Source: Mesostigma viride (Eukaryota; Streptophyta; Mesostigmatophyceae; Mesostigmatales; Mesostigmataceae). From it: a stretch of DNA of 64,000 bases. The stretch covers positions 62,001-126,000 of the forward strand of contig RPFO01000041.1 in assembly GCA_009746045.1 (NCBI GenBank). Reading direction: 5' to 3'. This document shows, piece by piece, positions 9,229 through 59,520 of the stretch. The notes beneath the pieces are model-generated. The model saw only the letters and a list, made by a program, of their open reading frames with translations. It was not told the origin of the DNA and ran no database searches. The position numbers and the translations under genes were made by a program. Numbering within the stretch: position 1 is the stretch's first letter; every line of letters starts with the position of its first letter.

Positions 9229-9240
9229 GTGGGGGGGAGG
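9229..9240 (+). promoter_or_regulatory. 3' polypurine tract of gypsy copy 1
   Basis: A gggggggagg run lies directly against the first base of the LTR at 9,241, as expected for the plus-strand primer. The same tract stands directly before the LTR of copy 2. Confidence 0.88.
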
Positions 9241-32980: not shown

Positions 32981-32984
32981 CTTA

Positions 32985-35960: not shown

Positions 35961-36029
35961 ACAGCGGTCAGCGTCAATTCATTCCATAACGCGTGCAATA
36001 CTGAAAGAAAGAGGCACGTGTAATGCAAG

Positions 36030-37012
36030 GCTTGGATAGGTTGAGTGATCTATGAGCTTACATGCAGGCAAAGATGACAGTGGAATGCATGCTAGCAAAT
36101 GGTGGGAAGATGCTAACAAAACATGATTATACACCATGATTATGGGCACCTAGCTGATCTTCTTGCACAATCAACGCAGTATAAACCATCAACATCCAAT
36201 CCTCACAATATATGCACGGCTTGACGACGTATACAGCACCTAAATACTACACAACTGCAACCTGCTATGGCTGACATGCAAGCAACGTCGAGTAGGATGG
36301 CGGTCTTAGAGAGGCTGGGCAGAGTTCGGTAGAAATAAGTGGAAAACTGGCAGAAACTAGGTAGAAACACAATATACTTACGCCTGCAAGCACTATTGAG
36401 CCGGTGGCAGAGGCCATTTCCAGGAAAATACAGCACACCGTAGCAATAGCCACGGTCACGCCTTACGCTATTTGCAGGCACCATCATGCCCGGAGCTACC
36501 CAATAAAAGTCTGCACAAATCTCGGTTTAGCCGAGAGTCCGGGCATTCGGAATGAATAAACATGTGTTAAGAAGTCTAAACACCATGGAAATACCAAGCA
36601 TGGTGCCGCAGCAGACCCGAGTCATGCCGTAATAATATTTATGCCGGTTTCCGGGGTTTTCGCATGAAAGTTGGGTGAGAAACTGGAAAAAACTACGTTT
36701 CCTTTGCCCCAGTACCTCAACAACTCGTCAAAACCTAATTATCAACCTTATAACGCATCATCATGGTCGTGCCACCCAACAGCCACTGAAATTCGCGCGA
36801 AAACTGGCGAGATCTACCTGCCGCCATTGCCGTCGTCTTCACCTTCGTCCCGCGAAAATGCGTGATTTCAGTGGTACATATTTGTTTGCAGCTGTCACAA
36901 AAAAAAAAAAAAAAACAGGATTTTTTCTTGAGTTCTATGAGATGTTTCTGACCTGTGTTGAAAGTTTCAGACCAAAAATCGCATGTTTAATAGGTTTGCC
37001 ACGTGTCAGATT
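36030..37012. other. Noncoding stretch
   Basis: No gene is recognised. A 16-bp A run lies at about 36,899-36,915. Confidence 0.4.
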
Positions 37013-38031: not shown

Positions 38032-41000
38032 CTATGATGATGCTGATGTGGCAGGCGTCGAGGATGGCAGCGGTGGTGCTGAAGCCAGCAGTGCCGCCGA
38101 TGATGATGAGGATGCCAGTGGCGCCACCGCGGCCGTTGTCCCTGGCCGCTCGCGGTACATGGAGATCTCCTGCTGCTTGAAGTAGCGGCGGTCCTCCTCG
38201 TCGACGAGCACAAGGTTTAGGTAGTACTTGACAGAGAACTTGTTGTTCACGTTCTTGTACGTGGGGCTCAGCTCGTACGGCGCCAGGAACATGCGGATCG
38301 GGATGGAGTCGCCTGCGTGAGCCATACAGACGATGATAAGTTTCAAAAGGAGATCGCAGCCACGGAGGGTACGGTATATAAGGTATTGAACAGGAGCACG
38401 CAGATCGGGGATGGAGTCGCCTGCGCTATTCAATGGATACATGAGGGTGATAAACGAGTATTGGTATGGAGTCGCCTGGGCTATTCAAAAAATGCACGAG
38501 GGTGATATACTAGGGGCTCACAGGAGACCCTGGCAAGGCAAGTTGGCGCTATCAGATAGTCATTGTGAGAAAGAACATGCAAATTGATATGGAGTTGTGT
38601 GTGACATTAATCATGGCAACTTGTAGGGTTGATAGCCAGGGGTGACATGGCACGCTTAGGCTAGCAGAAAAAAGGCCACATAAGGAACAAAAGATCAGGG
38701 TTGAGTCCCCTGCGAAGTGCGCGTGAGGACTGTGCCAGGGTGAGAATAGATCGAATTAAGAGGCACACAGGAAAACCACACAGAAAAACCTGGACCGCCG
38801 GAAACAGTGAGCCGCTCAAGGTACAAACTTCACCCAACAACGTACAGCTCCTGGTCTTCCATCCGCAACTGCTTTACTCCTGGTAAAATGCTATGCCCCA
38901 AGAACCAACAACGTACAGCTCCTGGTCTTCCTTCCGCAACTGCTCTACTCCTGGTAAAATGTTATGCCCCAAGAACCAACAACGTACAGCTCCTGGTCTT
39001 CCTTCCGCAACTGCTCTACTCCTGGTAAAATGCTATGCCCCAAGAACCAACAACGTACAGCTCCTGGTCTTCCATCCGCAACTGCTTTACTCCTGGTAAA
39101 ATGCTATGCCCCAAGAACCAACAACGTACAGCTCCTGGTCTTCCTTCCGCAACTGCTCTACTCCTGGTAAAATGCTATGCCCCAAGAACCAACAACGTAC
39201 AGCTCCTGGTCTTCCATCCGCAACTGCTTTACTCCTGGTAAAATGTTATGCCCCAAGAACCAACAACGTACAGCTCCTGGTCTTCCTTCCGCAACTGCTT
39301 TACTCCTGGTAAAATGCTATGCCCCAAGAACCAACAACGTACAGCTCCTGGTCTTCCTTCCGCTACTGCTCTAATCCTGGTAAAATGTTGTGCCCCAAGA
39401 ACACACGACGTACAGCTCCTGATCTTCCTTCCGCTACTGCTCTACTCCTGCTCTAAAAGATTACGCCCCCAAGAACACACAACGGACATGACATCCAACC
39501 CAGGCATCCGTCCGACACCTAGGTCCAGGCCAATCGACCCCCTGCCCTCGCCAAGCCTACACGCCGCGTCCATGGTGTACATGATGATGATTGTTTATCA
39601 ACGCCACATACATGATAAGCATTTCTATCATCGCGCATTTCTATCATATCATGCGCATAAGATAGCGAACATTGACATGCACAAGCGGACATGAGCAACC
39701 ACAGCCACACGTAGGATCCGTGACAAGGGTGTACATGGTGATAAGTTGTTCATCATCGCGCCCAAGCGGACATGAGCAACCACAGCCACACGTAGGATCC
39801 GTGACAAGGGTGCACATGGTGATAAGTTGTTCATCATCGCGCACAAGCGGACATGAGCAACCACAGCCACACGTAGGATCCGTGACAAGGGTGTACATGG
39901 TGATAAGTTGTTTATCATCGCGCCCAAGCGGACATGAGCAACCACAGCCACACGTAGGATCCGTGACAAGGGTGTACATGGTGATAAGTTGTTCATCATC
40001 GCGCACAAGCGGACATGAGCAACCACAGCCACACGTAGGATCCGTGACAAGGGTGTACATGGTGATAAGTTGTTCATCATCGCGCCCAAGCGGACATGAG
40101 CAACCACAGCCACACGTAGGATCCGTGACAAGGGTGTACATGGTGATAAGTTGTTCATCATCGCGCACAAGCGGACATGAGCAACCACAGCCACACGTAG
40201 GATCCGTGACAAGGGTGCACATGGTGATAAGTTGTTCATCATCGCGCCCAAGCGGACATGAGCAACCACAGCCACACGTAGGATGCGTGACAAGGGTGTA
40301 CATGGTGATAAGTTGTTTATCATCGCGCACAAGCGGACATGAGCAACCAGAGCCATGTAGGATCAGCGGCAAGGGGTGGGCCATCCACCCACCGCGCACG
40401 GGCGCCCCGTCCATGATCTTGAACTTTGCGATCGTCTCGTTTTCGTTGAATGTGTTGGCGCCTGCGAGGGGGCGATGGAAGGTGGCGGCGTAGTGTGATG
40501 CCGCAAGTATGTGACGGGGATGAGCAAACCATTTATTTATTACAATCAACAGGTCAGTGTATTATGTACCAGCAGTACATACGTATTCATCTAAAAAAGT
40601 GTTTCTGGGTATGAGGCTGGGGAGATAAACGAAGCAAAAAATGAGAACAACCTAGGAGGGATATCTTCCACCCTATGTCCGCACCTTAGCTGCTGGAATA
40701 CATAGTGGTGCAGGTGCACTTTGTGCACCCAGAGCAGGTGTAGTTTACACCCTACCCTTGCAGGAAGTAGCCCAGAATGTATTGAAAGCCATAGGCCCCT
40801 TCTAAGGGATATGTGCTACATCTACCCCCAACGGACATATGTTCCAACTTTTAATCTAGGAGGGATAGCTACACATCTACATCTATAGCCTACCCATCTA
40901 CAGGCAGGCAGGCAATATCTCGCCTGGGAGCCCTCGTACGTGTGTGCCGCCTGAGCCAAAACGTGGTAGCATCTACGCTACACATGCGACCACGCACTGG

Positions 41001-43850
41001 CTACGTGATATGCAAACGGATGAGGTACTAGCGCACGATACCCAGGTGCATGGCCGCTCGCAAATATATTACTGTAGTAGAGTTTACTATAATGTGTTTC
41101 ACCTGGCCTGCAGGATTTTTCCCCGCTGCATCAGCATTCTCGCATACCAAGGAGACAACCAGCCCAGGCCAGAAATCGGGGGATACTACTTCGTCTGTAC
41201 AAGCATGCCCACTCGAATTCTGCATGGCCCTGCACTTCACCCAGACAACTCCCTCTTCCTCACGACTAGCCCACACAAGACAACATACCACAAAAGACTA
41301 GCATACCTCAAGACTAGCACATACCACGCCCTCGCTTGACCCGGACAACTCCCTTCTCATCAACGCTAGATACCCTAGCGAACAGTAGATCCATGAACGG
41401 CTCATTGACCCCTCACCTGACCCAGACGACTCCCTCCTCCGAATCTCCAGCTCCATGTGCTTGATCTTGATGCGCACGAGCAGGAAGTAGATCTTGCCGA
41501 TCACCACGTCCTTGAGGTGGTACCTGACCGTGCGGCAACAAGGGGGTGGGGGTTGGGTGTGGGGGGGAAGGGGTGCAAACAGCCGGGTACCGTAAGAAGC
41601 GGTAGAAGGTAAATGACAGAAACTCCTTTGAACTTAGCTCTAAACAAAAGAAGTAAATACTAGTACACAGTAAGGATTTAAAAAGGCACTGCAGTTATAG
41701 AAAAGGCACTGTAGTTATAGAAAGGCACTGTACTCCAATAGTAGCAGTATACCGCTATCGCTATATATAGTAGCATAGCTTATAGAGTAGCAGTATACCG
41801 CTATCGCTAGATAAAGTAGCATAGCTTATAGAGTAGCAGTATACCACTAGCGCTATATATAGTAGCATAGCTTATGTAGTAGCAGTATACCACTATCGCT
41901 ATATATAGTAGCACAGCTTATGTAGTAGCAGTATATCACTATCGCTATACATAGTAGCATAGCTTATGTAGTAGCAGTATACCGCTATCGCTATATATAG
42001 TAGCATAGCTTACAGAGTAGCAGTATACCACTATCGCTATATATAGTAGCACAGCTCATGTAGTAGCAGTATACCAAGTAGCATAGCTTATGTAGTAGCA
42101 GTATACCACTATCGCTATATATACTAGCATAGCTTATAGAGCAGCAGTACACCACTATCGCTATATATAGTAGCATAGCTTACGTAGTAGCAGTATAGCA
42201 CTATCGCTATATATAGTAGCATAGATTATGTAGTAGCAGTATACCACTATCGCTATATATAATAGCATAGCTTATGTAGTAGCAGTATACCACTATCGCT
42301 ATAGAAGGTACACAGATGCGGTGCGTTGAGTAGCAATATGACCATGGTGGGTGTCGGCCGACACACTGGAGACCAGCGCAAGCCTGGCTGTATGATCATG
42401 GGCTGTGCAACAGGCATCGAGGGAAATAATGGCATTCAGGTACGATCACTGAACATGTTCTGCCTGAGCTTGTCGTCGGCAAAAAAGGGCAGTCAAGGAG
42501 CAGCGGCAGCAAACATCATCAAAGGCAGGCCGATGCACAAGAGAACACTTTGGAAGAAAGGCAACTTGGAAAAGGCAGCTTGACACAGCGACAGCTTGAC
42601 ATAGCGACAAGGCAATTCAGCAACAAGGTTATACAGAAAAGGAACAGTACGACATACGGGCAGAAGGTTAGAAAAGCGCAAGAAGGTGGCGACTCACATG
42701 GACTTGGCACATAAACACACACGGGTGCAGGAGGGTGACTCACATGGACTTGGCATACTCAAACTCGATGTGGAGGCAGTCCTCGATGCCCACTTCCATC
42801 TGTAACGAGGCAGGGATCCCCCAACACAAACCGCAGGCTCAAGGATTGATAGGTGAGCCCATGGCAACAACCTCCATCGGTCACAAAACACAGGGACGAA
42901 AAAACGAACCGACCGGACAGAGACAGGTCCAACCATTGCTACCTCGTCCAAGAGTCATCTGACACAGCGCACGGACCAAGGAAAGCCCGCCCGCCGTAGT
43001 GCAGACTACGCGAGGGGCCAGAAAACAAGCCCGTCGTTGCGATACCTCGCCCAAGGCAAAGTAAGCAAACCTTTACCTGGTGCTTCTCAACTGTCCAGGC
43101 GTCCAGACAGTGCCAATCATCCGCGCAGAGCCGATGTGCGCTACACGCCATGTCCATGCAACCATGGGCATGAGTATGGTTTAACACACTTGGCTTCCTA
43201 ACGCGACCTCCCTGAACCTGCATGCATACATCGACAACCCTTGCTCGTCTGAAAATCCCTTCTTGGCCTCCTATGCCACCTATCGGTATACAAAGCCCTC
43301 CCTCACCTTCCTCCTATGCCACCTATCGGTACTAAAACCCTCACCTTGACCTTCGTGCCCTCCTCTGCTACCAATCGGTACTACAACCCCCCAACCCTCC
43401 CTTCCCTTCACCTTGATCTTCTTGTTCTCCTACGCTACCACTTGGTTCTACCCCCCCCCCCCCCCCCTCACCTTGATCTTCTTGTTCTCCTCCGGATCGA
43501 CGGTCGTGTACCCTTGCACCCACAGCGGCAGGTCCTTGACGATGTTGGACGCGTAGTGGCGCTGGATGGTCACGCGGACGACGTACCTGCGGGCAAAGAC
43601 GGCATCCACACAAAAAGGTATACGGTAGACGTGTACAAGGTAAACTGTGTGCACGTGCCGGTAAACGGTGTGTGGAAGGGGGAGGCATGGACATGGCGGT
43701 GTTGCGTGTGTGTGCGTACGTGTATGTGTGTGGGGGGGGAGTAAGACAGGGGCCAAGAAAGTAGAGAACGACGAACAAACAAACAAACAAACAAACAAAC
43801 AAACAAACAAACAAACAAACAAACAAACAAACAAACAAACAAACAAACAA

Positions 43851-43925
<75 letters not shown>

Positions 43926-46025
43926 TCCCACATTAATCTATTGAGCAGCCGCCAGACATGGCCACCCCTTGAAGCAAGGGGCCACAAGCCCATCCTGGCC
44001 TATTAACTATCCTGGCCTATTTTACTTGCTGCCCGCCACAACCGGCAGCATGTCCCCCTCACGACGACGCAGATGCAGGAACGACGCACTTGCGCAGAAG
44101 AGCGCACGCACAGACGCGCTGTGCCAACGGGTTGATGCAACGCCCGACTGGCAAGCACAAGTGCACGGTGCTGGCCACGCTCCCAATGTCTGTCTAGATC
44201 GTCATCCGTCCCCTAGTGCACGGGTTGCGTGCCACCCCTCCACGCTGTACAGGGGAGCACAGGTGAATGACAACCCTCCACGATCAGCACAGGGCGCGGT
44301 CATAGGGGCCTTTAATCGGTAATCACGACAAAGTGGTCGTGGGATAACAAGGGGACGGGTGCGCGGGCATGCAGCTACGAAAACGAGAAGGTCCATGGAT
44401 AGAGGCATGTGGGTGTGGGTGGTGGGGTGTATGGTGGGGGCTTGCAGCTGCGCGGGAACAGGGGGGTGGGAACACCTACGTATTAGGGGGGTATATGATC
44501 TTTTGTAGGGGGGGATGTCATGATTGGTGGGTGTATGGTGGCGGGTTGAAGCTGCGCGGGAACAGGGGGGTGGGAACACGCACGTACGTATATCATGATT
44601 GGCCAGCGTTACAAGGGGGCGGGTGATGGAGTACGCGTACATAGACGGCAGGTTAGACTGCAGGTTGCATGTGTTGCTATTGTTGCATATGTTTGTTGTA
44701 CACATCACAAAATGAACGAACGGGACTGTTTGTTACTGCTCGGACAGCTATGCGGCCGCATGGTGACGTGTGCGGGCATACGTGGGCAGAGGAACGCCAC
44801 AAGTTGACTCGCTGCAGCTGGCCCGCCTCAAACCCACGCGGCGCCCCCTTGGTCAGGCCCACTTCTCAAAAGAATCCTGGGCAAAAGCTAGTGACGGGGG
44901 TCAGCAACGGTGTTTGCGTACCTGAGCCGCATGTGGCGCCCCTCGTAGGACTCGTAGGGCATCTCCACCGAGCTGAACTCAAACGGGTACTTGACGACAT
45001 TGGAGATCTCGCCAGGTGGCGCCAGCTCGCGCGCTGCGGACAGCCAGGGGGGCAGGGATAAGGAAAAGGATGAAATCAGCAAATGGATTTGGGTTGAGCA
45101 AACAACTCAACAAGGAAGAAATGTGGCTCTATTCAGTTTATTGGGCTATCAGAGACACAGGGCCCAACTGATCGCACGTATGGCCCTACTGAAAGGGGGT
45201 AACTGGGTTACAAGGGGGCCATAGCTGCTGAAACAACAAACACAACAATGCCCAGGTCTGTCCTCAGACTGTCGCTCAAATGAGATCGCTTACAAGTGGA
45301 GAAGCACATGGGTATGTGCACCGCAAGGCGAACGGGCTGGCTTTAATGACAGTATGTTGTGGAAAGAGCGATGCTGCCATCTGCATGCCAGACCCACCCT
45401 ATTGATGAGTGTGCTGTAACCCGCCCCCAACCATCGTTCCCCATCCCCCCCTCATTCTTCCCGCCTTCTCCTTGCGACAACGTGCGGCTTGGTGACATCA
45501 AGATAATCCTTGGATAAGACAAAGACATTCCTAAAGAGAGCCTCCGTCGGATTTATTAACTTGCTATTGAGGTATAGATGGTGCCAGGGTATAGACGGCA
45601 TAGCGCTTATGAACTGCACGGCCACACCCACGACCGGGAAAGTCAGTCCACGCGCATAGAACGAAGAGGAGGCAGCCCAGACGTCCCGAAACCTTCCTAA
45701 GGCGAAAGAGTAGGCGTTGCAGGGAGTGACTTGCTAGCAGGGCGGGGTACTCACCCAGGGAAACGAAGTCATAGAAATGACCCCTGTCAAAATACAATTC
45801 GATTTGCCCCAAGAGCTCGACTTTTACACCCACGTGGTCAACCCTCTTTCCCACCACCGGCTCAATTCGGACCTCCCCTGAAACGGAGTCCCCGGACTCG
45901 AACAACGGTGCTGTTTCCACAGCCCCATTGGGCTTTTTAATAGTGGATAACGGCCGTGTGTTGCCATCCGATAGATTGATAGCTATCGTGCACTGACTTC
46001 CAAAAGCATTAGAAAGGAAATTCAT
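38032..46025 (-). CDS. VPS26: Vacuolar protein sorting-associated protein 26 (retromer subunit), seven exons
   Basis: Exons in coding order: 46025-45755, 45033-44922, 43586-43472, 42799-42744, 41523-41417, 40461-40393, 38312-38032. All six introns are GT-AG and the 1,011 coding bases give 336 aa. VPS26 is the arrestin-fold subunit of retromer; with VPS35 and VPS29 it recycles receptors from endosomes to the trans-Golgi. Family hallmarks: VKVELLGQIELYFDRG (exon 1), YPFEFSSVEMPYESYEG (exon 2), MEVGIEDCLHIEFEYAKSM (exon 4), GKIYFLLVRIKIKHMELEI (exon 5), AKFKIMDGAPVRG (exon 6) and FSVKYYLNLVLVDEEDRRYF (exon 7). The RRRES sequence after MELEI is plant-like. Length fits the family (about 300-330) with an added Ser/Ala/Pro tail. 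The ATG at 46,025 starts MNFLSNAF, as expected. Introns are rich in tandem repeats. Confidence 0.97.
38400..38490 (-). repeat. Two decoy copies of the VPS26 exon 7 acceptor
   Basis: On the plus strand ggatggagtcgcctgcg (38,408-38,424) and ggagtcgcctgggctattc (38,468-38,486) repeat the real junction at about 38,303-38,318. Each contains a cag followed by gcgactccat on the minus strand, so each could act as a 3' splice site. Using the one at 38,420 would add exactly 36 codons in frame with no stop. Confidence 0.7.
38838..39470. repeat. 71-bp minisatellite in VPS26 intron 6 (nine units)
   Basis: Units begin aacgtacagctcctggtctt at steps of 71 bp from 38,838; the last two are more divergent. The variants catccgcaactgcttta and cttccgcaactgctcta recur along the array, which suggests duplication of several units at once. 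Confidence 0.93.
39680..40362. repeat. 81-bp minisatellite in VPS26 intron 6 with a 162-bp higher-order period
   Basis: Nine units contain gcggacatgagcaaccacag and cacgtaggatccgtgacaag. Neighbouring units alternate strictly between gcgcccaagcgg and gcgcacaagcgg. The unit length is a multiple of three, so long frames are open on both strands, but no protein is implied. The array ends about 30 bp from the exon 6 donor. Confidence 0.93.
41229..41358 (-). repeat. Copies of the VPS26 exon 5 donor region in intron 5
   Basis: cacccagacaactccctcttc (about 41,237) and gacccggacaactcccttctc (about 41,338) resemble the exon 5 end and donor at 41,417-41,438 (gacccagacgactccctcctc). Spacing is roughly 80-100 bp. 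Confidence 0.6.
41736..42305. repeat. About 45-bp minisatellite in VPS26 intron 4
   Basis: Twelve to thirteen units contain gtagcagtataccactatcg, then ctatatatagtagcatagct and a tta-rich end. One unit near 42,070 is shortened. Confidence 0.92.
42689..42755 (-). repeat. Duplicated VPS26 exon 4 donor
   Basis: gactcacatggacttggca occurs at the true exon 4 end (42,737-42,755) and again at 42,689-42,707 in intron 4. Each copy has a full gtgagt donor on the minus strand. Confidence 0.8.
43255..43445 (-). repeat. Tandem copies of the VPS26 exon 3 donor region in intron 3
   Basis: The exon 3 end and donor read on the plus strand ctcaccttgatcttcttgtt. A near-exact copy with ten more matching bases lies at 43,409-43,434. 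More decayed copies (ctcaccttgaccttcgtgcc, ctcaccttcctcctatgcca) lie at about 43,340 and 43,302, separated by a shared tatcggtact word. An 18-base C run at 43,451 separates the array from the true donor. Confidence 0.8.
43768..43922. repeat. Adjacent (CAAA)n and (GA)n microsatellites in VPS26 intron 2
   Basis: About 20 copies of caaa (to about 43,851) are followed by about 34 copies of ga. The long frames across them on both strands are artefacts. Confidence 0.97.
44415..44605. repeat. Duplicated about 120-bp segment in VPS26 intron 2
   Basis: gctgcgcgggaacaggggggtgggaacac-type sequence with a preceding gggtgtatggtgg occurs twice, at about 44,424 and 44,537. Confidence 0.75.
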
Positions 46026-49000
46026 GGTTATCTAAGAAAAGTGTGACCTTCGCTCAGCTAAGCGCACCAACACGACCCTGCTCTGGATTCCCTCCCGCAT
46101 AGCACCCTTAGAATGTTAGTAAAGCCATGGGATCTGAGTAAACCCAGGTAAACCCAGATTCGCGAAGCTGATACCTAAACAAGACGGTAATGGCAAATCG
46201 TGTGCACTCCTCTGCTTTCTCGCAGTGCAAAAGAAATATGTTGCCGACTCTTCGCCACGGTCACAGCTCCCAGGTCACCATGTCTGATTCGAGGGGTAAT
46301 TTGACTAATTTCACGTTCGCCTCGGTTGCATGGCAAAAGTTTCCGAGTTGTTTTCACCAGATCGTGTGGAAAACTACTCCTTGTGGCGCATCCCCGATTC
46401 CCGAGATACAGAAGTATTCAGGAAAAAACATATAAAAGTATTTTCACAGGTTTCTACTACAGGCATGATTGTGTCCTATGAGCATGGAACGAATGGGCGT
46501 AGCCCATGGAACTCCCAAAATGTTTGCGGCAAGCGAAGAAACTTGCAACGCAGTGCTAGCATGTTAGGCAGCAGAAAAATGTAACGAGATTTTGCCAGGC
46601 CCCCTCGAGGCCTCGACCCCGCAATCTGTCACGTCGCGCGTCTGGCGTCCATCACGTTATCCATCGCCAGTGAATTCGCATGGAGATTCCCAACATGTTG
46701 TCGCCTTTGAGCAATATTACGGCAACCCCGTATGGAATTTTCACATGCATCAATGCACGTCGTAATATCGTATTGAACCCAGGCACTGTCTCAATTTCGT
46801 TTATTCTGTTAACTAGGTGGCATTCATCAGACCCAGCCGACTGGTAGTTTTTCATTTGGTTGTCATGGATTGCGCACTTTGTACATAAGCGAAAGGCCGG
46901 TTCATGATGCAGCAGCTGCCACGGTGAGCGGTTAACTTACAATCAGACGGAAACTTGTTCACATGGGCTAGGATGGTGTGTGGTCGGGAGGGAAACGTGG
47001 GCGGAATGCGGGGCAGCCAAAACCCATGTCCTCCGATATCTCTGTCGTGGGGCTTGCTGAGAGCGGCTATGTACTGCGGGCGATACTCGAAAGATTAAGA
47101 AATGGTAGTCTTGAAGAATAGGACTTTAGTTGGGCGATATGCGTTTAGCCCAAGCTTGTGTTACCAGGGACTGCGCGGGTAGCAAAGTCCACGTAACTGC
47201 AATCGAGGCAATGAAGCACCACGGTTAGTCTAGTGTAATTTCGACGGCCACCACACACGTTTTACTACCATCGGTATACTATTATTACCTTATCATTATC
47301 ATTTTATTGCTATCATCTTATTATTGTTATGAAGATAACAATTGAATATGAAGATAACAATAAGGTATTTTTATTATCTTCATAGTAAGAATAATCCCTT
47401 ATTACGGATATAATAATAAGGTGTTATTATCTTGATGGCATAGGCGAAGATAATGATACCTTCGTGGCATTCTTTTATTCCAGGACGTGCCAGCCCAGCT
47501 GGCAATTGTCTGGCCGCGACGGTGACGATGTCCTTCAGTCCTTGTTCTTTACGTTCCAATAGGGTTCCAGCTATAATGCTTGAGTTGCGATGACTGCCAC
47601 ATCGACTGCACAAGTTTGGGGCATGGGACGGCTTATGCTGTGCAGGGCCTGGGGGGAAAGGGGGGTTAGCCCCCCCCAACACCCAACACCCAATTGTACA
47701 CTCGCTCGGGGATAGTTCTAAACAACCAGTTGAGGTCCCTCCGGTTGTGCAATACTTGCAGGAGATTACTCATGGTAAGAAAAGATTCAGCACATGTTGT
47801 CAAGGTTCTGGAGCATAACAGAACATTCCACAACGTCAGCAAGGGCTGAGCATGGATGCGGCGTGCCAGCACCTTGTGGGCGTGGAATGCGTGCATGCAT
47901 CTGCATGCACGCATATCCAGCAAGCTCTGCGTGCATCATGACACAAACGAATCAATGCGCAGTGCTCACATGACAAGTTGACATTTTCATACGAGCTCAC
48001 ACTGTTTCTGGAGGTATGCGTGCAGTGTTTACACCTGGTGCAGCGTCAATGGCTGTAAGTGCGCATTCAGTTGTGCATATCTAACTTGCCCACCATGCAG
48101 CAACCAGTATCATCTAGCCTGCGTTATATATAAATGAGACAACCAGATATATCTAGCCGCATTCAAGCTTGGCATGCGTAGCCATGCATGAAAAAGCAAG
48201 CTAAACTATATAGACACTGACACCGGTCTGTAACCTGTTTGGGCATGGCTGCACCATGTACTGTCCGCCGGCCCTGCGTTGGATTTGGATGTGAACGTAT
48301 CTGGCAGCTCATGCTGCATCGCGCTGCCCGGCGCGCCATGCATGACTGCCGCAAGTATAATGTGTGTGCACTCCAACATCACCCACGTTGAACACAAACT
48401 TGCAAGCCTGTGCTATACTTGCGCCAGGGTATGATGACATCGTTGCACATGTAGATGGATGGTCAATTGCACTGTAGTTGTAGTAAAGCAATTGCATCAT
48501 GGCAGTAAAGCAGTTTCAATGCCCATGATTATCGAATACATGGATGTGCATGCATTGAAAGACTGGCAGGCATTTCAATCAGACAATTCCAGAGTCATAG
48601 CTTGATCATTGCACTGCTGATACCAGCTAATATGATATGCAATGTTGAATACGGAATACACTATTTACAGCGCTATCAGCACATCTACAGCATGGTCATT
48701 CTTGGTGGCAGCTGTATCTCGTGCATGTGTCAACTCAGGCTTGTCTCCTAGTACCGCATCAAGGTGCGGTTGTCTCCCACAGTACTTTGAGGGTGACAAG
48801 CCATTCATTAGTGACTGCGCATTCACAAGATAGCTCGGTCTGTACAGCAGCTGCCGCTGCACCTTGGTCAGGTCAAAACACTCTTTTGTGCGCCTGCTAT
48901 CTTCCTGAGATGTACCTGCGCAGCCGCCATGTTGAGATCCTTCAACCAAATATGGCAATAATTGCCATCTCTGCAGATGGTACATGGTCACAGCTGGTGG

Positions 49001-49319
49001 GAGTGATGGCTCAAAGGGATTCCCCTCCGTATAGTACATGATCCGGCCCTGCACTACTTGGCTGTTGCGCTCATTGTCTCCCACAAGTCCATGCGTCCAT
49101 ACAAGCCATCAGGTCACCATGTAAGTGACCTGACCAAGGATATCCTGCCAAGCAGCCCCCCAATGAAGTCTTACATATAATCTTACGTAGCGGTGTACCC
49201 GGTCAGACAACCCACATGCTGTCAGCAGCTGCTGACATGTCAGCAGGATTGTCATGTCACATGTTGGCTCAGACTATTACGCCCATCTCATCGATGTAAT
49301 GCTGTTGGATGGCCCCACC
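46026..49319. other. Intergenic region between VPS26 start and hydrolase end
   Basis: The left part must hold the VPS26 promoter and the right part the hydrolase 3' UTR. A TGTAA (minus strand, 49,175-49,171) about 145 nt after the hydrolase stop could be the poly(A) signal used by many chlorophytes. Positions 47,270-47,420 are AT-rich with repeated aagataacaa and tattatta words. A hairpin, gcgtgcatgca and its complement across two bases, is at 47,889-47,912. I find no further gene. Confidence 0.5.
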
Positions 49320-52300
49320 TCATAGGTGTGAATGGGGCTGGACGGCTGGAGCCAGCTTATGTACAGCGAGTTGGGCCGTGGTGGCGCCTGGCTGGCTCGC
49401 CTGCTGCAGCCTCTTCGTCAGGAAGCCTCTCACGATCTTCATGTTCTCTTCATCTGCAGCAGGAGAAGTCCAACAAATTCCCCCGCAACACCACCAACAT
49501 GCCCAACATGTAAACATGCCCCCACAGCAAACCCCATAGACACAACCCGTTTCCAATCACGAGCAGGATTAGTAGGGAACCTACCTGAAGCAAACGCACG
49601 GGATTGATAGGGCACCTACGTGAAGCAAACGCACGGGATTGATAGGGCAACTACCTGAAGCAAACGCACGGGATTGATAGGGCAACTACCTGAAGTAAAC
49701 GGTCCCTTTGAAACTGCTGCCTGTAGCTATCGTCATGGTGTACTGGCATACAGTAATTTTTGGAAGGTCACTGTAAGGTAGTTTGTAGTGAGCTACAGCG
49801 AATGGCAGGATCTACGGGTGTACTCCAGCCAGCACTGGCGGCCTAGCACTGGGACCACCCAGACAGAAAGCGGCCGGATGACCGCTGATCATCTGATCAT
49901 CCATCATGCATCAATGGCATTTGGTAGCTACCAATACGATATAACTGGCTGGCATTGTGTAGCAGCAGCATTTTGGAATCAACACATTTTGTCTCAACAC
50001 GACACCAACTAACTGGCATTTTGTAGCTGTGGACGTTTCCCAGGCCCTTCCAGTCTCAACGTCTTTGCCAATGATTTCATTCATGAAAACAAATCCATTA
50101 CTTCATGATGAGCTCATGGTCATAGCATTTCAGATATGGTTGTCTCCTTGCTATGGCAGCCGCATGCACATTCACATGATGCCTTGACGGCACTGACGGC
50201 ACTGACGGCAGGCTCCGCCCGCACCTCAGGGAAGGGAGGTGATGCGCTACCAACGGAACCTCCTACCAACAGATCTGTTTAGGGGCATAGGATAGGGGCG
50301 AAGGGTGGACGCCTACACAAAGGTTTCTTATGCCCCATCCTGGCAGAACTTACAACAGTCACAGTTTATGAGCCCAGCTTAGTGTAGACTGTGGAGTCTC
50401 TCACTAAGGCCCTTTCCTGGAAAGGCATAAATAACTGCGCGCTGGGACGCAGAGGGAGCCCTAACCGTATTTCCGCAGGCTCGTAGCACTGGCTCAAACA
50501 GGCTCCTAGCTGTTCATTAACTCACAGCTGTTCATTGACTCACTAGATAGCATGCCCGCGGTGCAAATGAATCCAAGGGCTGCTCACACTGGCATCAGGC
50601 ATTTACAGTGCCGCTTCACGACGCCCAACACGATCCCGCATCGTGATTCACCCAGCGACTTGTGATACAGTACCACATTTATGTGTGCTACAGTGCCATG
50701 TTGCTTTGGAAGTGGGGAGAGTGCAGGTGGGCGGCGGGGAGATGAGGCATGCCCAACGCTCAGGACAGCGGGACTGCGTCATGACATTGACTATGACCTG
50801 ACGAGGACCAAACAACAGCAAACCAACATATGCCCGACCATGGCTAGTTTCTTAGGCGCGTGGAACGGTGAGGCTGAGGAGGCGTGCCTACATGACCCAA
50901 TGCTCGCAACCTACATTGGATCCAATAATAGCAAAAGCCACATAGGATCCTCAGGACAGACACACACACATTGATCAGAAAACATGCAAAAGTTAAAACG
51001 GTTGACGTATACCACTATACCAATATACCTCATCATCTGCATACAGTGACTCAAAAAAATAAAACCATGAGTAGTATGAAATGCATCATCACGGCTTGCC
51101 ACAAAGTGGGAAATAAAGTAGTATCACCGGTCGTGGGGTACCCAGTGACTTGAATGCAGTGACCTGGATACAGTGACTTGGATACAGTGACTTGGATGCA
51201 GTGACCTGAATACAGTGACTTGAACACAGTGACTTGAACACAGCGACTTGAACACTGTGACTTGCCTAGCCGCGGGATTGTGTGCGCCTGCTTGTGGTGG
51301 ACGAGCACCGCACCAGGGAAGTGGCGGGCCAGTTTCTGGTTCTCGCGTAGCAGGAAGTCCTTCTCGCCTGCGGCCGCCAGGTCATGAAGACCGAAAAATA
51401 CAGTATATATAGCAGTATAACAGTACAGTTAAGAATACAGTTACCGATAGCAACACGTCACACTAGAAGCGGGATGGAACAAGAAGCTAGTATGGATAGC
51501 CACACGTCACAATAGTATAGATAGCCACACGTCACACTAGTCGATGGAACAAGGAGCTTTATTTAGCAAAGAGAACGAAGGGCCACTATGAGGGCCTACG
51601 CTGGAGTGAGAGTGGATGAGAAGCAGCCTCAGCATTCTATCAAATACTATTACAATATTCTTATAATATATTCTTCTGTGATCTGCAGATGGCCGGTTTG
51701 CAATTGTCAAGAGGGCAAATTAAGACCGTGGGCAAGGCAAATGATCTCCCCGGCAACGAAATTACCAGCAAAAGGGAAAACCACATCCCACAGCCCACAC
51801 TTTCTTGGCTACTTGAACTACATTACTAAGTAACCTTCTTGCCATCTGCACCCACGCCCAGAAGACATGCCGAGCCATTGCTAGCTTTGAAAGACATAAC
51901 TTTAATAACCGCAGTGGTAGGCAAGGTGGAGCATGTCCCCCTGCCATGCGACCCATGGATCCACAAGCCAAGTCATTGATACACCAACTCTCTTAGCTGG
52001 CACCTATCCAGAAAGTGCAGCAGTGGCATGTCCCCCGGCCACGCGTCCTATGATTTCGCTCGTCATTGATAAGGCAACTCTTATCATAGATAGCATATAC
52101 CCAGGAGTGGAGTGAAAGCACGTCCCACAGCCGGGCGTCCTATCCTTTCGGTTGTCCTTGATAAGGCAACTCTTATAGATGGCACGTACCCAGGAAATGA
52201 ATTGACGGCATGTCCCACAGCCACGCGTACTTCTCCTTGTCGAAAATCTCTGTCATCGACGAGTCAAAGATGCGCAGGCCCGACACGATCATGCAGAAAC

Positions 52301-55300
52301 GGAGGGGGGGGACGTCCGTCATGATGTCTCCCTGCAGGGGGAAGCCAGGAGGGGGGGGGGGACGTCCAAATAAGATGCATGTCCACACTTTCGTTAGAAA
52401 CCAGCAACGTAACCCAAAAAGAGAAGCCCGCCCAATCAGGCTTCCTCCAACAACCGGAAGGGCAGTCCTGGATACCGCTCTCCCAGTTTCAGTAGTAGTG
52501 TTCGGGGTCTGGGCAGCCTCCTTTAAACATGGTAAAATATAGAGAGGGGAAGCCCCATTTTCTCCCACTGGTCTAGAATCCATCAGAATCAATCAGCCTC
52601 ACTCAAATAGGGAGGGGGACGTAACCCCTTATCTCCCACTGGTCTCAGGACTTCCGCTGGTTTCTTTGGGTTCGGGTGACCGCTCATAATTAGTAGAAGT
52701 AGCAGCATGTTTGTTCTGCTGTCCCCGCTGGCAATCTTAACATAGTTGCGAGATTGTGTAGATTACTAACCTCCAGGAACACCTACGTCGATTTTTGGAA
52801 GGCCTGGCCAGTTCCTTACGCGAAATCAGTATAGCGGGCGTAAGCCAAGGGGACAGTGTTGAATTGGGAAGCGTTACAGCCATTCCTGAGGCTAGGCTCG
52901 ATGCCGGCCTCAAAACACAGTCAGTGCTCACGCTTCAAGTCCGATGACTATTGGTTTTGTGCATTCCTAACCTGTCACATGGTGCTAACACGATACTGAC
53001 AAAGTAGGGACGGAAAACCGACACAAGGTGGACGCAATACTGACACAATACTGAGGCAAAACCGACACAAGTTGGACGCAATACTGACACAATACTGATG
53101 CAATACTAACACAATACTGACACCAAACCGACACAGACTGACGATAGTACACCGATAGTACGGTCTGATGCCACCCGGCATACCTCCACCCACCACCCGA
53201 CTGCAATAGCTCCTATCATGCCCTACTGCAATAGCTCCTATCGAGCCCGACTGCAATAGCCCCTATCACGCCCGACAGCCATAGCTCCTATCATGCCCGA
53301 GTGCAATAGCTCCTATCATGCCCTACGCAATAGCTCCTATCATGCCCTACTGCAATACCTCCTGACATGCCCTAGTCACGCCTGCTAACTGTTTACGCCT
53401 GCGTGCAGTGTGTCGGAAAGCACACCTTGCGTTGCAGAAGGCACACCAGGGCCGCCAGCGCCGCACCCTGCGCACACAAAAACAAGCAGATGCATGTACT
53501 GAGGTATTGATCATGATCGAACAGATAGAAATTGTGACGGATCACAAGGGCAGCACAGCAAGACTCAGTGACGTAGGCTGTTTGCTGCCCAGGCATCCAA
53601 AAACAATGAAACAGAACCAGAGAAATCACACACCCCCAGTCGCTTCACCTACGTAACCAACCAACCCAAGCCACCTGGAAGGCAGGAACTTGAAATCCCA
53701 ACACAACATGCACTCCAAAACCACAAAATGACTCCTGCTTTGGCAGACGAAATGGCCGAAAGAGCTGCGCACCTGTGAGAATCCCAGGACGCCATCAAAG
53801 GGCCCGTGCAGCCGCGCGTAGTCGTTGATGTACGTCAGCGTCTCCTTGAGCCCTTTGTAGTGGGTGGTCTCGTTCTCAAACGCTTCCTGTTTCATGGGTC
53901 AACGCATGCGTAGTGGGCGGTTGATCTACGTCAGCGTCTCCTTGAGCCCTTTGTAGTGGGAGGTCTCGTTCTCAAACGCTTCCTGTTTCATGGGTCAAGG
54001 CATGCGTAGTGGGTGGTTGATGCACGTCAGCGTCTCCTTGAGCAGTGGGTGGTCTCGTTCTCAAACACTTCCTGTTTCATGGGTCAACGCATGCGTAGTG
54101 GGCCGTTGATCTACGTCAGCGTCTCCTTGAGCCCTTTGAAGTGGGAGGTCTTGTTCTCAATCGCTTCCTGTTTCATGGGTCAACGCATGCGTAGTGGGTG
54201 GTTGATGTACGTCAGCATCTCCTTGAGCCCTTTGTAGTGGGAGGTCTCGTTCTCAAACGCTTCCTGTTTCATGGGTCAAGGCATGCGTAGTGGGTTGGCC
54301 AAGGCATGTCAAGGACAGTAGGGGCCAAGCGAGGTCTTGGGGGGGAGGATGAGCACGTGTGGCCTGCGAGATTACTAGGTTATGCACGATTGGCAATTGG
54401 GGGCAAGCCAGGCCTTGGGGGGAGGATGGGCACGTGTGCCATGCGAGAATACTAGCTTAGGAATTATTGGCATTGAAGGCAAGCCAGGCCTTGGGGGAGG
54501 ATGGGCACGTGTGCAATACGAGATTACTAATTTAGGCATTGGTAGCGCAGTACTAGAGCAGCACTACTTTGTTAGGACTTGTTTTGTTAGGAGTTATTAC
54601 TAGGTTAAGCGTTGGTAGCGCAGTACTAGAGCAGCACTACTTTGTTAGGGTTTGTTTTGTTATGATTTATTTACCAGGAAGACTTCCCACTGCATTGCCC
54701 ACACACGTTCGTGCCGATCGGTGTATACTCTTTAGACCACACGCTGGGGTGCCGGTCACTATAGCTCCCTTCGTCCAATTCCCAATGCTGTTGGTGAACG
54801 TAGCTGTCAGGATTCAAGAGACCACATTGCTGGTCACTGCAGCTCCCCTCGTCCAACACAATGCTGTCGGTCACACTCGCTCACACTGTACGATACACCA
54901 CCTTGCCGGTCACTATAGCCCACCTTGTCCACGTTGTACCACTCATAATACGGCGGGTCGAATGTGCGAGCCACCTCGGGCTCTGGCGGCGCCTCCGCAG
55001 GGAATGGGCCGTCCAGGCATACCTGCGGTGGCATCAGGGAAGGCCAGTCGATTGCAGACCCATTCGAGGGTAGGCCCATGCAAGGGTACATAGGCATGGG
55101 CGCTGGTGGAGAGTACGGGCCCCCTATTCTAAAAGGGCGTGCGTGTTCAATAGAGAAACTCAACTTTTCAAAAAATGATAGCCATGTGTGACAGCACAGC
55201 AAATGTAATCGCACCCTCAAAGCTCTGCAACGGTTGGATGCACACACACAAGGAAGATAGCACTGTAAATTTCCGGGAAGCACGTAGCCAAGCCAACATC

Positions 55301-55890
55301 GTATAGTCCCCCGCGGCCCTGCCACGGCGAGAAAGTGGGGTTGATAAACGACCATGATAACATGAAAGCTGAATGCAATTGGGAGTCCCAGATACCAGCT
55401 GTGGTTGGAACCATGGCGCAGCTGTGGTTGGAACCATGGCGTGCTGACACAAAAAACAGGCTTAGTAGTTGCTAAATATGCTGACAGGACCAGACGATGT
55501 GAATCAGCCCTTCGCCGTCCTTGCAGTCAAGCAGCCTGAGGCAAGCATCCTTAGTTGATAATGCACAAATGGTGCCGCAAGTAATAATTCGGTAAATCCA
55601 GTAGCCAGCTGAATCCAGTAGCTAGCTGACACATTTCCAAACAGCCAGCGCGCGCTACGTGTCGACTACTGAAAACTGTGCATCAGCAAGCCTAGCTGGT
55701 AGAAAGCAGACACGCAGTTGCAAGGGCGCAAGGACACAGCAAGTCTCGGGTGCGTTCATCGCGCGCAGGGCCTTACCACTTCCAAAATGTCGTCAAGCTG
55801 GTGCCATTTGGCGAAGTACAATTGCAACCGCATGGCGGCCGCGCTTGTCCTGAAACCATGAAAAGCCATTACACGCAGCTTTCGTGCCAT
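49320..55890 (-). CDS. FSH/OVCA2-type serine hydrolase, seven exons
   Basis: Exons in coding order: 55890-55777, 55022-54924, 53886-53773, 53467-53426, 52331-52190, 51367-51266, 49453-49320; 747 bases, 248 aa. It is an alpha/beta hydrolase of the FSH1/OVCA2 family (esterases of uncertain natural substrate). The N-terminus MARKLRVMAFHGFRTS is the first strand and oxyanion loop; DPPYYEWYNVDK is plant-like; GPFDGVLGFSQ plus GAALAAL from the next exon forms the nucleophile elbow GFSQGA (Ser). The acidic residue is in FLGEKD, and the His in HTIPRL. The final exon adds EENMKIVRGFL. Introns 1-5 are GT-AG. Intron 6 has a GC donor (ctag, then gcaagt) and is supported by the protein continuing HTIPRLDEEN. 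An in-frame ATG 16 codons upstream exists; the chosen start matches the family. Confidence 0.95.
49565..49702. repeat. 37-bp tandem repeat in hydrolase intron 6
   Basis: Four units contain gaagcaaacgcacgggattg and atagggcaactacct; the first and last are less exact. On the minus strand each carries ttcaggtag. Confidence 0.9.
51150..51262 (-). repeat. Repeats derived from the hydrolase exon 6 GC donor
   Basis: On the minus strand the donor gcaagtcacagtgtt is followed by about nine 12-13-bp units of the type caagtcactgtgtt or caggtcactgcatt. The donor core is thus the unit of the array. Confidence 0.8.
51930..52170 (-). repeat. Tandem copies of the hydrolase exon 5 donor region in intron 5
   Basis: The true junction on the plus strand reads ggcacgtacccaggaaatga then gcatgtcccacagccacgcg. 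Copies at about 52,085 (atacccaggagtgg, cacgtcccacagccgggcgt), 52,002 (acctatccagaaagtg, catgtcccccggccacgcgt) and 51,930 (catgtccccctgccatgcg) repeat it at steps of about 80-100 bp. The intron part gataaggcaactcttat is repeated with it. Confidence 0.85.
52985..53130. repeat. Short tandem repeats in hydrolase intron 4
   Basis: Words of the form caatactgacacaatactga and accgacacaagttggacg recur irregularly. Confidence 0.8.
53200..53375. repeat. 22-bp minisatellite in hydrolase intron 4
   Basis: About eight units of tgcaatagctcctatcatgc(cc) with small changes. Confidence 0.88.
53887..54300 (-). repeat. Tandem copies of the hydrolase exon 3 acceptor and exon start
   Basis: Four extra copies lie directly upstream (in gene sense) of exon 3. 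Each repeats gcttcctgtttcatgggtca (at about 53,983, 54,068, 54,164 and 54,264) together with about 60 bases of exon 3 coding sequence and the intron word gcatgcgtagtggg. Unit length is 85-101 bp. Each copy keeps the cag acceptor; two of the four carry a TAG where exon 3 has TAC. Confidence 0.93.
54320..54660. repeat. Two further tandem duplications in hydrolase intron 2
   Basis: A roughly 60-bp unit (gcaagccaggccttgggggg, aggatgggcacgtgtg) occurs three times at 54,325-54,530, and a roughly 65-bp unit (ttggtagcgcagtactagag) twice at 54,540-54,660. Confidence 0.85.
54745..54910 (-). repeat. Copies of the hydrolase exon 2 donor region in intron 2
   Basis: The true donor region reads on the plus strand gccggtcactatagcccacc then ttgtcc. 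Copies gccggtcactatagctccct (about 54,751) and gctggtcactgcagctcccc (about 54,829) are followed by tcgtccaa, and a partial one (gtcggtcacac) lies near 54,867. Confidence 0.82.
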
Positions 55891-56472: not shown

Positions 56473-57798
56473 TGGAAGCCACTATTTGCAGCAACATCCG
56501 AAAGGTGACACAAGTGCGGGATGCCGCAGGTGCGGGTGACACCGAGGTACCCGCACTTGTCCGGACGCGCCGCGCTGGGCCAGAGGGCGGATTTGGCGCG
56601 AGAAGCAGGGCATACCACAAAACCGCTGTCGCGCGCAAATCGAGACTTAGCCATTTCAAGGAAGCACTGCGCCCGATGCAGGCCTGACGCAATGCTCTTT
56701 ACTCCAAATTGCACGGAAGACTCCATTATTTCGCATAACACCATGGAATTTTCAATCGTAGCAAGGTCGCTTTTACCTCGCCCGACGCCCTTCCGACGGG
56801 CCAAATCTGGACGACGAGTATGAGAGTGGAAGTGTTCTTTATAATCGTCAGAGGAATGGTGCGGAAAGCAGGGCATGCCATAACTGCGCTGTCGCGCGCA
56901 AATCGAGACTTCGCCACTTCACGTTGCATGGTCGATCAAAGTTTATATTGTGTCTTTCATGAAGGCCGGTGGCGGGCTGCATTTACGCAAGGGGAGCTAA
57001 GTTATGTCCTCGAAAAGTCGCGTTGGCCCGGGCCTTTGCCGGGGCCCAACCTCCCACCAGGAGATTGGTTGGAGTGCTTCTTATGAATCGTGTAGTGGCT
57101 CAGGCTGGTGGGATGATACAACGACGGGCCAATCGTGATAAAAATAGTGGCTTCCGTTTGGTAGAGCTGTCGTTAAGTAAGAGTCAAGAGCTCTGACAGG
57201 TAACAGCTGTTAAACCCAACGCGAGAGCAGACAGAGCAGCGGCCAACCCCGGCAGCCATTGCGGGGGAGTTATTCCGGGAAGTGAAGGGGCCGGCATGGA
57301 CATTTATCTGAGTGTAGACTGATTTTCAATATCTTGTTGTTTCAATAATTGTACACGTAAGCGTTGATTTCAATCCAATGGCAGGCATATTGGCATGGAT
57401 TTTTTCCTGAGTCTTACCGTGTTTGCCGTGCATGAATGTTCCAAGGCAGTCAATCTAATGACGGCATTACTATCGAATGTTCCTTGGCATCGTTGTTTCT
57501 GCCAATGGAGTGTCACTTAGAAGATTGATATTGCCTTGTAATGTTGCCAGGCGGACCAAAATCCAGGCGAGTTGCCTGCGACTGTGCTCGCCATCACCTT
57601 TCAACAGCCGTAACATGCAACTGGCGAACGGGGTTGCTGTTCTTTTTTCTTCTTTCCTGCAAGCTGTCTTGGTTCTTCTGCGTTGTCCATTGTAGGTCGA
57701 TGAATGTAGGAGTGTGCATAAAAGCGGCCGTGCTTTGGGTCAGGTCCCGACGTTGCATTGTCGAGCGAGAGCCCATCAAGCAGGCGTGCTTGTTGGTT
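56473..57798 (+). repeat. Left arm of the long inverted repeat
   Basis: The arm runs from ggaagccact to gcttgttggtt. Differences from the right arm are few: isolated substitutions plus a length difference in the T-rich run near 57,320. Confidence 0.9.
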
Positions 57799-59259: not shown

Positions 59260-59520
59260 AATTAATTAATTTACACGTAACTGTGTCACGTGTGCAGACG
59301 TCCTCAGGGAAATGAATATGGGATGGGGTGGATTAATTAATAGACACGTGGGTGGATGGATGTAGCTATCAAGGAGACAACCAGCGCAGGCCAGAAATCG
59401 GGAGAATCCGGACCATGGTAGCTATGTCTAGTTCCTAGTTACAGGGTTGCGGGCACCACATCCCGAAGATCGCTATGCATGCCAAACTTAGTCACACGCG
59501 GAGGCACCACCGACTGGGGG
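59260..59520 (-). repeat. CACGTGAC palindrome repeat, copy 3
   Basis: It is inverted relative to 28,285-28,500 and more complete. The shared words include gaggac, gggatgggg, ctagttcctagttacagggt and gtcacacgcgga. It also contains tcaaggagacaaccagc followed by caggccagaaatcggg, a string shared with 41,146-41,182 in VPS26 intron 5. Confidence 0.7.

Follow-up and report, generated by a model that had tools for sequence, protein, structure and literature searches.

Introns of the streptophyte alga Mesostigma viride carry decaying local copies of their own splice junctions, with an excess at donors

Introduction

Are the introns of Mesostigma viride lengthened by copies of their own splice junctions, and is there anything about the junction itself that attracts such copying? 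These questions are raised by a window of 64,000 nucleotides (GCA_009746045.1, contig RPFO01000041.1, positions 62,001 to 126,000 of the forward strand), the whole stretch of DNA analysed. An original prediction, made from the letters of this window, held that in eight of twelve introns of two genes a repeat copies the adjoining exon end and splice site, that each repeat was born locally, that the pattern resembles a model of intron growth or gain by tandem duplication, and that a local mechanism at junctions would be of note if it acted across a genome.

Results and discussion

Gene models and outside sample

Two genes were modelled, encoding VPS26 (match to VPS26A chain 6vac_B by phmmer, E 9.3e-106) and an FSH1-type serine hydrolase (PF03959, E 7.9e-35).

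38032..46025, minus strand: VPS26 gene, coding part, 7 exons and 6 introns
45034-45754, 43587-44921, 42800-43471, 41524-42743, 40462-41416, 38313-40392, minus strand: VPS26 introns
49320..55890, minus strand: hydrolase gene, coding part, 7 exons and 6 introns
55023-55776, 53887-54923, 53468-53772, 52332-53425, 51368-52189, 49454-51265, minus strand: hydrolase introns

The reading frames join cleanly across the exons of both genes, and at the protein level 10 of the 12 introns agree with database proteins of Mesostigma (P0003, used for the VPS26 model, and P0121). In the same protein-level comparison the database proteins skip the copies lying in VPS26 introns 2-6 and hydrolase introns 1-5. The last hydrolase intron (49454-51265) has a GC donor.

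Outside the window, 68 introns were sampled from chaperonin, kinesin, adaptin and SNF2 genes. The rows used were 53 of 58 matches for chaperonin and 105 of 129 for kinesin (matches with a single exon were left out, as were near-identical copies located on further contigs and any match that was isolated or broken), 22 of 30 for adaptin and 27 of 64 for SNF2; the proteasome family yielded almost no introns and was unused, and loci L001-L008, L047 and L048 enter no count. Introns were required to have a margin of 3 or more and a length off by at most 1 residue, which 41 of 52 intron pairs passed for chaperonin and kinesin together, 13 of 15 for adaptin and 14 of 16 for SNF2. The main statistic, picked on the window, used 30-base windows with 21 identical bases and a null in which each array is collapsed; runs were also made at further sizes and thresholds. 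When the filter was set the junction list existed and the duplication test was still to come, and both filter and main statistic were fixed before SNF2.

Junction copies in the window

43259..43494, minus strand: VPS26 exon 3 donor (43471/43472) and copies in intron 3
42690..42755, minus strand: VPS26 exon 4 donor (42743/42744) and a single copy
41225..41440, minus strand: VPS26 exon 5 donor (41416/41417) and 2 copies in intron 5 (41225-41259, 41329-41358)
38283..38478, minus strand: VPS26 exon 7 acceptor (38312/38313) and 2 copies upstream in intron 6 (38391-38425, 38460-38478)
54750..54931, minus strand: hydrolase exon 2 donor (54923/54924) and 2 copies (54788-54855, 54750-54777)
53824..54295, minus strand: hydrolase exon 3 acceptor (53886/53887), repeated in a 96-bp minisatellite
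51972..52238, minus strand: hydrolase exon 5 donor (52189/52190) and 2 copies (52038-52147, 51972-52049)
51143..51264, minus strand: 14-bp array in hydrolase intron 6, starting at intron base 2

Junction-spanning copies were found at seven of the eight junctions originally listed, namely the donors of VPS26 exons 3, 4 and 5 and of hydrolase exons 2 and 5, and the acceptors of VPS26 exon 7 and hydrolase exon 3. The exception is the hydrolase exon 6 donor (51265), where the 14-bp array repeats zero exon bases and is therefore an intron repeat and no junction copy. The count of eight introns does not hold either, as the eight listed junctions fall in 7 introns and a true junction copy is present in 6 of the 12. 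As similarity, all seven are beyond chance: two window sizes were used, and at each junction the dinucleotide-shuffle rate is 0.0000 (to four decimals) with one or both of them and never above 0.0067.

The copies are varied in form. The nearest copy of the VPS26 exon 3 donor lies 60 nt downstream and retains 25 of 30 exon bases, while that of the exon 4 donor, 46 nt downstream, has 19 identical bases spanning the junction and was seen in two comparisons other than BLAST, which did not pick it up. At the hydrolase exon 2 donor the copies are mainly intron sequence and hold 8 exon bases; the 96-bp minisatellite at hydrolase exon 3 consists of ~5 units, each including the acceptor together with almost 60 nt of exon, with a deletion in one unit. 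By sums of the hits, exon-derived sequence makes up ~1/4 of hydrolase intron 2 and ~1/10 of hydrolase intron 5; in the remaining introns it reaches a few per cent at most.

Locality, orientation and decay

Introners are repeats connected with introns in which one sequence is common to many introns. Such an element, or another dispersed one, is rejected for the window, where comparing the 12 introns with each other, dust on, gave 0 matches at E<1e-4; the units thus differ between introns, as had been proposed. Local birth of each repeat was likewise borne out, with introns of other genes matching at 0.1-0.3%: when centred on the junction the control gave 0.2% for donors and 0.3% for acceptors (54 introns, 1620 comparisons each), and in SNF2 1 of 840 (14 introns), with intron-side acceptor windows matching other genes' introns in 1-3%.

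The pattern recurs beyond the two genes, junction duplication being present in 4 of 4 gene families sampled. With at least 21 of 30 identical bases, own-intron copies exist at 17 donors and 7 acceptors of the 68 outside introns, and at 22 donors and 9 acceptors of the 80 introns that include the window; a copy is shown for 30 junctions of 54 outside introns. In about 1/3 of examined introns, then, the intron's own exon edge and splice site recur as additional copies in decay. Among 66 introns tested in four windows, direct copies were found in at least one window at 37 junctions (23 donors and 14 acceptors), and inverted junction copies at none.

The copies decay neutrally, like dead sequence. 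In 36 copies the exon part differs at 29, 30 and 49 sites at codon positions 1, 2 and 3. Third positions take a share of 0.45 (P 0.010 when compared with one third), equal to a hand-made estimate for a conserved exon whose copy is dead. With coding constraint absent, use of the copies as alternative exons was rejected. It might be argued that selection keeps them as spare or alternative splice sites, as 19 of the 23 donor copies retain GT and 9 of the 13 acceptor copies AG, and of the 20 donor copies that could be scored 10 equal or surpass the real site. Against this, real donors are higher on average (8.9 vs 7.0, P 0.006), ascertainment favours copies retaining intact splice signals, the exon part is unconstrained (in-frame stop in 4 of 36) and the offsets show no multiple-of-three bias (9, 16, 11), so that we regard such selection as quite improbable.

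Donor excess over expectation

Duplication at junctions may be compared with that at other positions of the same introns in two ways, and the answer depends on how arrays are counted. When all random intron positions are used, the window gives 7 junctions vs 6.35 expected (P 0.45, 12 introns), and with 40-base windows duplication is, if anything, lower at junctions than in random stretches of intron. Outside, the first 41 introns give 14 vs 12.7 and all 68 give 24 vs 21.3, donors and acceptors together. The junction total is ordinary in this comparison because arrays fill these introns, and the comparison that the original prediction had itself named as its refutation, with random positions in the same introns, shows no excess for junctions as a whole. 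This raw test counts each array unit but the junction once; it is kept as a result, and after simulation was judged too lenient on arrays. When each array is counted once, 7 are observed in the window vs 2.5 expected (P 0.005, ranging from 0.003 to 0.08 over the sizes and thresholds tried).

The excess resides in the donors: the starts of introns are marked by copies more often than simple models predict. Even against the raw null, the 68 outside introns have 17 donors vs 10.66 (P 0.0185), and a separate estimate of the donor excess over this null is 1.7 (interval 1.09-2.44). Against the collapsed null, the first three outside families have 13 of 54 vs 2.54, a ratio of 5.1 (interval 3.4-7.0, bootstrap over gene regions), and SNF2 replicates this with 4 of 14 vs 0.97 (P 0.010). 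Adding back the 13 filtered-out pairs gives, for the 67 introns of the first three families, 16 copied donors and 7 copied acceptors vs 3.20 per side, and in the 16 pairs of unfiltered SNF2 5 donors are copied and 1 acceptor vs 1.04. Acceptors show little excess (7 vs 3.51, P 0.055, 68 outside introns). A mechanism or bias acting at junctions is therefore supported with reservations and for donors only, at ~5 times the array-collapsed expectation; when the donor (centre -5) is paired with its neighbours between +20 and +60 in the intron, the difference is weak (P 0.02 to 0.33).

That there is no junction effect at all, uniform local duplication filling introns with minisatellites and covering junctions like anywhere else, agrees with the raw totals in the window and outside and with acceptors near the collapsed expectation. 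However, simulated uniform duplication gives a junction count of 0.81-0.83 of the collapsed and 0.36-0.38 of the raw expectation, whereas the real data stand at ~1.1 of raw in both window and outside, and the donor excess exceeds even the raw null; this explanation is unlikely.

A subtler possibility is that duplication strikes uniformly, and that a copy of a conserved exon edge can be recognised for longer than one of fast-changing intron sequence: exon sequence hardly diverges, and therefore an exon-anchored copy diverges more slowly. Acceptor copies fit this, their similarity being mostly limited to the exon side (of 12 tested, just 3 have homology in the intron part), with none of at least 25/30 identity outside the window (0 of 54). 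Donor copies do not, since 15 of 21 tested are similar on the intron side (P 0.05 or less) and the excess persists among near-identical copies outside the window (at least 25/30 identity, 6 of 54 vs 1.19, P 0.0008; at least 27/30, 4 of 54 vs 0.90, P 0.010). In the 12 window introns young donor copies show no excess at these two thresholds (1 vs 0.72 and 0 vs 0.55). Neutral simulations gave junction/collapsed ratios of 0.63-1.25 without a peak, both with conserved exons and in a second set that added indels and silent exon changes, the raw repeat level of this second set (0.04-0.08) being below the 0.157 of real introns. We consider differential persistence rather unlikely as the source of the donor excess. 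A G-rich (R-loop) cause was rejected, duplicated intron windows being not G-richer (0.246 vs 0.270).

Intron gain and known systems

The Rogers model of tandem genomic duplication, in which the two copies of an AGGT-containing exon segment provide both splice sites (as outlined in a review, PMC3443670), shares with Mesostigma viride a local tandem duplication involving splice signals, and junction copies are present, most with GT or AG. Its signature, an intron 3' end resembling the upstream exon end and a 5' end resembling the downstream exon start, is absent: when the donor context of each intron is set against its acceptor context, 11 of the 12 introns show no more likeness than chance gives (P>0.05), the likeness in VPS26 intron 2 (P 0.013 uncorrected) being lost on correction. 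Exon-derived sequence is moreover minor in each intron, at most ~1/4. Intron gain by this route is thus very improbable here; of the growth or gain originally suggested, lengthening is what the data support.

The closest known kind is that of the mirages of amphioxus, described in PMC3087553 for Adh3 and the globin genes BflGb6 and BflGb9 as minisatellite-like repeats across 5' and 3' exon-intron boundaries, with units of ~10-160 bp peculiar to each gene, many of them bearing AG/GT signals, and with regular splicing reported. Mesostigma viride is alike in its boundary-spanning units (7 window junctions), in the involvement of both boundaries (22 donors and 9 acceptors in 80 introns) and in units unrelated between genes. 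It differs in being a streptophyte alga with several gene families affected (17 donors among the 68 outside introns), in the measured donor excess, and in that many copies are short, old and spaced, whereas those of amphioxus form regular arrays; our side of the comparison comes from one assembly's sequence and database proteins.

In the potato RdRp gene, as described in PMC4974935, a tandem duplication across an intron-exon boundary created a new intron. As in Mesostigma viride the boundary-crossing duplicate brings splice signals along, but there the copy is used, while here the inner copies are probably spliced out. Tandem repeats at the exon-intron boundary of human segmental-duplication genes are said in PMC2812944 to form novel introns; these too are minisatellites altering gene structure, but the expansions described are in recent paralogs and half in coding sequence, unlike the copying of a gene's own junction within its intron. 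Among the literature matches listed, nothing of the kind concerned algae or Mesostigma.

Proposed mechanism

We think it probable that neutral duplication spanning the junctions lengthens these introns, with a bias towards donors. Short stretches of DNA across the exon-intron boundary would duplicate locally in direct orientation, presumably by tandem duplication or slippage. The copy attached to the exon body would remain the working splice site, and coding frames and database proteins suggest that this outer copy is the one used in splicing. The remaining copies would end up within the intron, to be spliced out, lengthen it and decay unconstrained, some expanding further into minisatellites; duplications crossing the junction would be tolerated because the spliced message is unchanged, and the copies are presumably harmless. 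The donor (5') junction is hit, or its copies are retained, ~5 times more often than the intron interior.

Head-to-tail arrangement is clear in some cases (53824-54295; L022, L043), and many others lie apart, the similar stretch being shorter than the offset; 3 of the 12 acceptor copies shown are C-rich and of low complexity. Spaced copies, together with acceptor homology that is mostly exon-only, mean that simple tandem duplication does not fit all. A stronger version of the idea, in which local direct duplication has a mutational hot spot at the 5' splice junction, a boundary-tied process repeatedly copies exon tail and donor some 40-250 nt into the intron, and introns grow from their 5' ends genome-wide, is a possibility to which we lean somewhat less than even.

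Junction duplications have been proposed as raw material for new splice sites and introns, and the known examples found in the literature are scattered. With copies at ~1/4 of examined donors, and if the sampled genes are representative of the genome as we expect, their rate, tolerance and fate become measurable in Mesostigma viride. Gene predictors should be warned of decoy copies close to the true splice sites in this alga, for which junction duplication is one route to long introns.

Gene models and introns

Two genes of the window were modelled, and when spliced at the assigned sites their exons give clean reading frames.

VPS26 gene: minus strand, 7 exons (phmmer E 9.3e-106 against VPS26A chain 6vac_B)
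FSH1-type serine hydrolase gene: minus strand, 7 exons (PF03959, E 7.9e-35)

Protein searches returned the database models P0003 (jgi/Mesvir1/19749), with 100% identity across 66% of VPS26, and P0121 (jgi/Mesvir1/19750), with 98% identity across 84% of the hydrolase. The assigned junctions match these proteins in 10 of the 12 introns; agreement is lacking for the other two because P0003 starts within exon 2 and P0121 continues past the hydrolase exon 6 donor, a GC site. In P0121 the read-through of this donor translates a 14-bp array as C-terminus (window 51140-51270); relatives go on like exon 7 here (PRLDEE...), unlike P0121, whose model is probably wrong at this donor. GC donors were also seen in a SNF2 intron (L056, CAG/GCAAGC) and a kinesin intron (L024, AAG/GCGGGG, margin only 3.0).

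The 12 introns have a mean length of 1067 bp, in an assembly of 439.9 Mb. For comparison, the published genome of strain NIES-296 measures 441.8 Mb, with introns averaging 1141.87 bp and repeats making up 30.1% of intron space (PMC6947507).

Junction copies in the window

The original prediction named eight junctions, in eight of the twelve introns, as copied by intronic repeats duplicating the adjoining exon end and splice site. Seven of them do have junction-spanning copies, the true figure being six of twelve introns; the hydrolase exon 6 donor was ruled out, as its 14-bp array begins at intron base 2. The clearest case is the hydrolase exon 3 acceptor, where about 40 bases of each unit come from the intron and nearly 60 from the exon.

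53824-54295, minus strand gene: hydrolase exon 3 acceptor array, about five 96-bp units

Three copies of this array are 90-95% alike in register and one is interrupted by a deletion. The smallest junction copies (19-35 bp) lie at VPS26 exons 4, 5 and 7. That the units are unrelated between introns was borne out: comparing the 12 introns with one another gave no match at E<1e-4, thus each repeat family arose locally. Of 40-base intron windows, 32.6% have a duplicate no more than 2 kb away, compared to 12.9% in the intergenic rest of the window and 0.05% in a shuffled control.

Other repeats were also observed. VPS26 intron 6 carries two minisatellites, 71 bp x 8.7 and 81 bp x 8.4 (38834-39450 and 39679-40355); the latter, whose unit is 27 codons long, stays open over 237-305 residues in more than one reading frame, a matter of arithmetic and not of coding. 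In VPS26 intron 2 an AACA microsatellite adjoins an AG microsatellite (43774-43923), and 39 bp of intron 5 (41145-41183) are 92% like extragenic 59367-59405, in the same orientation. Near-equal translated frames in opposite orientation at 56739-57927 and 60982-62213 are perhaps mobile-element ends or an inverted duplication. Frames at 1-12600, 16700-20200 and 32900-36050 are retroelement-like by eye (Ty3-like, copia-like, LINE-like).

Random positions and simulated introns

The comparison by which the original prediction was to be refuted, with random positions in the same introns, revealed no excess in the window: 7 junctions were observed versus 6.35 expected from random centres in the same 12 introns (raw null, P 0.45), and in the 40-base setting a mean rank of 0.59 (KS P 0.03) even put junctions below intron windows drawn at random. 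When each repeat array was counted once (collapsed null), the expectation was 2.52 (P 0.005; other settings P 0.003-0.08).

To decide between the two nulls, uniform local tandem duplication was simulated with exons fixed and junction-spanning events tolerated. Junction counts were 0.81-0.83 times the collapsed expectation and 0.36-0.38 times the raw one. Seven junctions were reached in 0/60 sets at window-like repeat density, and in 0.08 of 60 sets at higher density. Longer runs, in which indels, deletions and silent changes of exons also occurred, put the ratio of junction to collapsed counts at 0.63-1.25, without a junction peak, at repeat densities below those of real introns. By these simulations the collapsed null is the fitting one.

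Junction copies in other genes

Since the window had been picked for its pattern, genes beyond it were needed, and chaperonins, kinesins, adaptins and SNF2 ATPases were taken from a genome search. Introns were called between adjacent exon matches with adjoining profile positions, linked by the best in-frame splice pair (margin at least 3, length off by at most one residue). On VPS26 both adjacent pairs were called correctly; of two pairs skipping an exon, one was unanswered and one wrong, and a later adjacency limit bars such pairs. Some kinesin and chaperonin matches score identically on two contigs each (C622/C2 and C1641/C887 of the searched genome), perhaps unmerged haplotypes.

Copies were scored as at least 21 identities in 30-base windows. 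The 41 chaperonin and kinesin introns showed copies at 10 donors and 4 acceptors, a sum of 14 for which the raw expectation is 12.72 and the collapsed one 4.44 (P<0.001); with adaptins (54 introns) there were 13 donors and 6 acceptors versus 2.54 per side (collapsed). For the 14 SNF2 introns, with filter and main statistic set beforehand, 4 donors (P 0.010) and 1 acceptor (P 0.65) were found versus 0.97 expected. Over all 68 outside introns, the 17 donors exceed both the collapsed (3.51, P below 1e-5) and the raw expectation (10.66, P 0.0185), and the 7 acceptors give P 0.055 and P 0.94, respectively. Bootstrapping over 30 gene regions gave a ratio of 5.1 (3.4-7.0) for donors and 2.3 (0.75-4.6) for acceptors. 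Either kind of copy occurs in 20/68 outside introns, or 26/80 including the window.

Introns of other genes were matched by junction-centred windows of the 54 introns in 0.2% (donors) and 0.3% (acceptors) of 1620 comparisons each, a rate that goes up to 1-3% at the pyrimidine-rich intron side of acceptors; for the SNF2 introns the figure is 1/840.

Form and age of the copies

Among 66 introns, direct-orientation copies in at least one of four near-junction windows were found at 23 donors and 14 acceptors, and inverted ones at none. The copies are found 38-248 nt downstream of donors, with one at 637 nt, and 23-968 nt upstream of acceptors. On average, donor similarity fades within about 20 nt on both sides, while acceptor similarity covers about 25 nt of exon and only some 5 nt of intron. 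When aligned with gaps, 15/21 tested donor copies and 3/12 tested acceptor copies proved homologous on the intron side (P 0.05 or less). Paired with intron positions 20-60 nt deeper, the donor signal was only weakly significant (P 0.02-0.33). Introns with a donor copy average 1051 bp (n=23) versus 758 bp without (n=43).

The exon part of 36 copies shows 29, 30 and 49 differences at first, second and third codon positions, respectively, a pattern by which the copies look dead and the exon conserved. GT is retained in 19/23 donor copies and AG in 9/13 acceptor copies, figures that ascertainment favours. Near-identical donor copies number 6/54 versus 1.19 (at least 25 of 30) and 4/54 versus 0.90 (at least 27 of 30) in outside introns, where acceptors have 0/54; the window's 12 introns show no such donor excess (1 versus 0.72 and 0 versus 0.55) and one acceptor at each threshold.

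Origin of the junction copies

The nearest known kind are the mirages of amphioxus genes, and the paper on them gives an intron-gain model from boundary-spanning repeats (PMC3087553); an intron gained through a boundary-crossing duplication is described for a potato gene (PMC4974935). Comparison of the window's 12 introns left intron gain by duplicated junctions, a model which the original prediction had invoked, unsupported. A search of the open-access literature found no report of junction copies in Mesostigma or algae. What is new is the taxon itself, how often unrelated genes carry such copies, the control against introns of other genes, and the excess at donors.

A G-rich cause of the donor excess was tested and found without support. 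In simulations, tolerance of junction-crossing duplications alone predicts no such excess. The donor excess may reflect a mutational hot spot, or in part a longer life of exon-anchored copies that the simulations would underrate.

We think that the junction copies are local duplications spanning junctions. The outer copy of a duplicated junction would stay in use, the inner copies thereafter being intron; selection would remove exon-internal duplications and tolerate junction-crossing ones, so that exon sequence would get into introns only along with a splice site.
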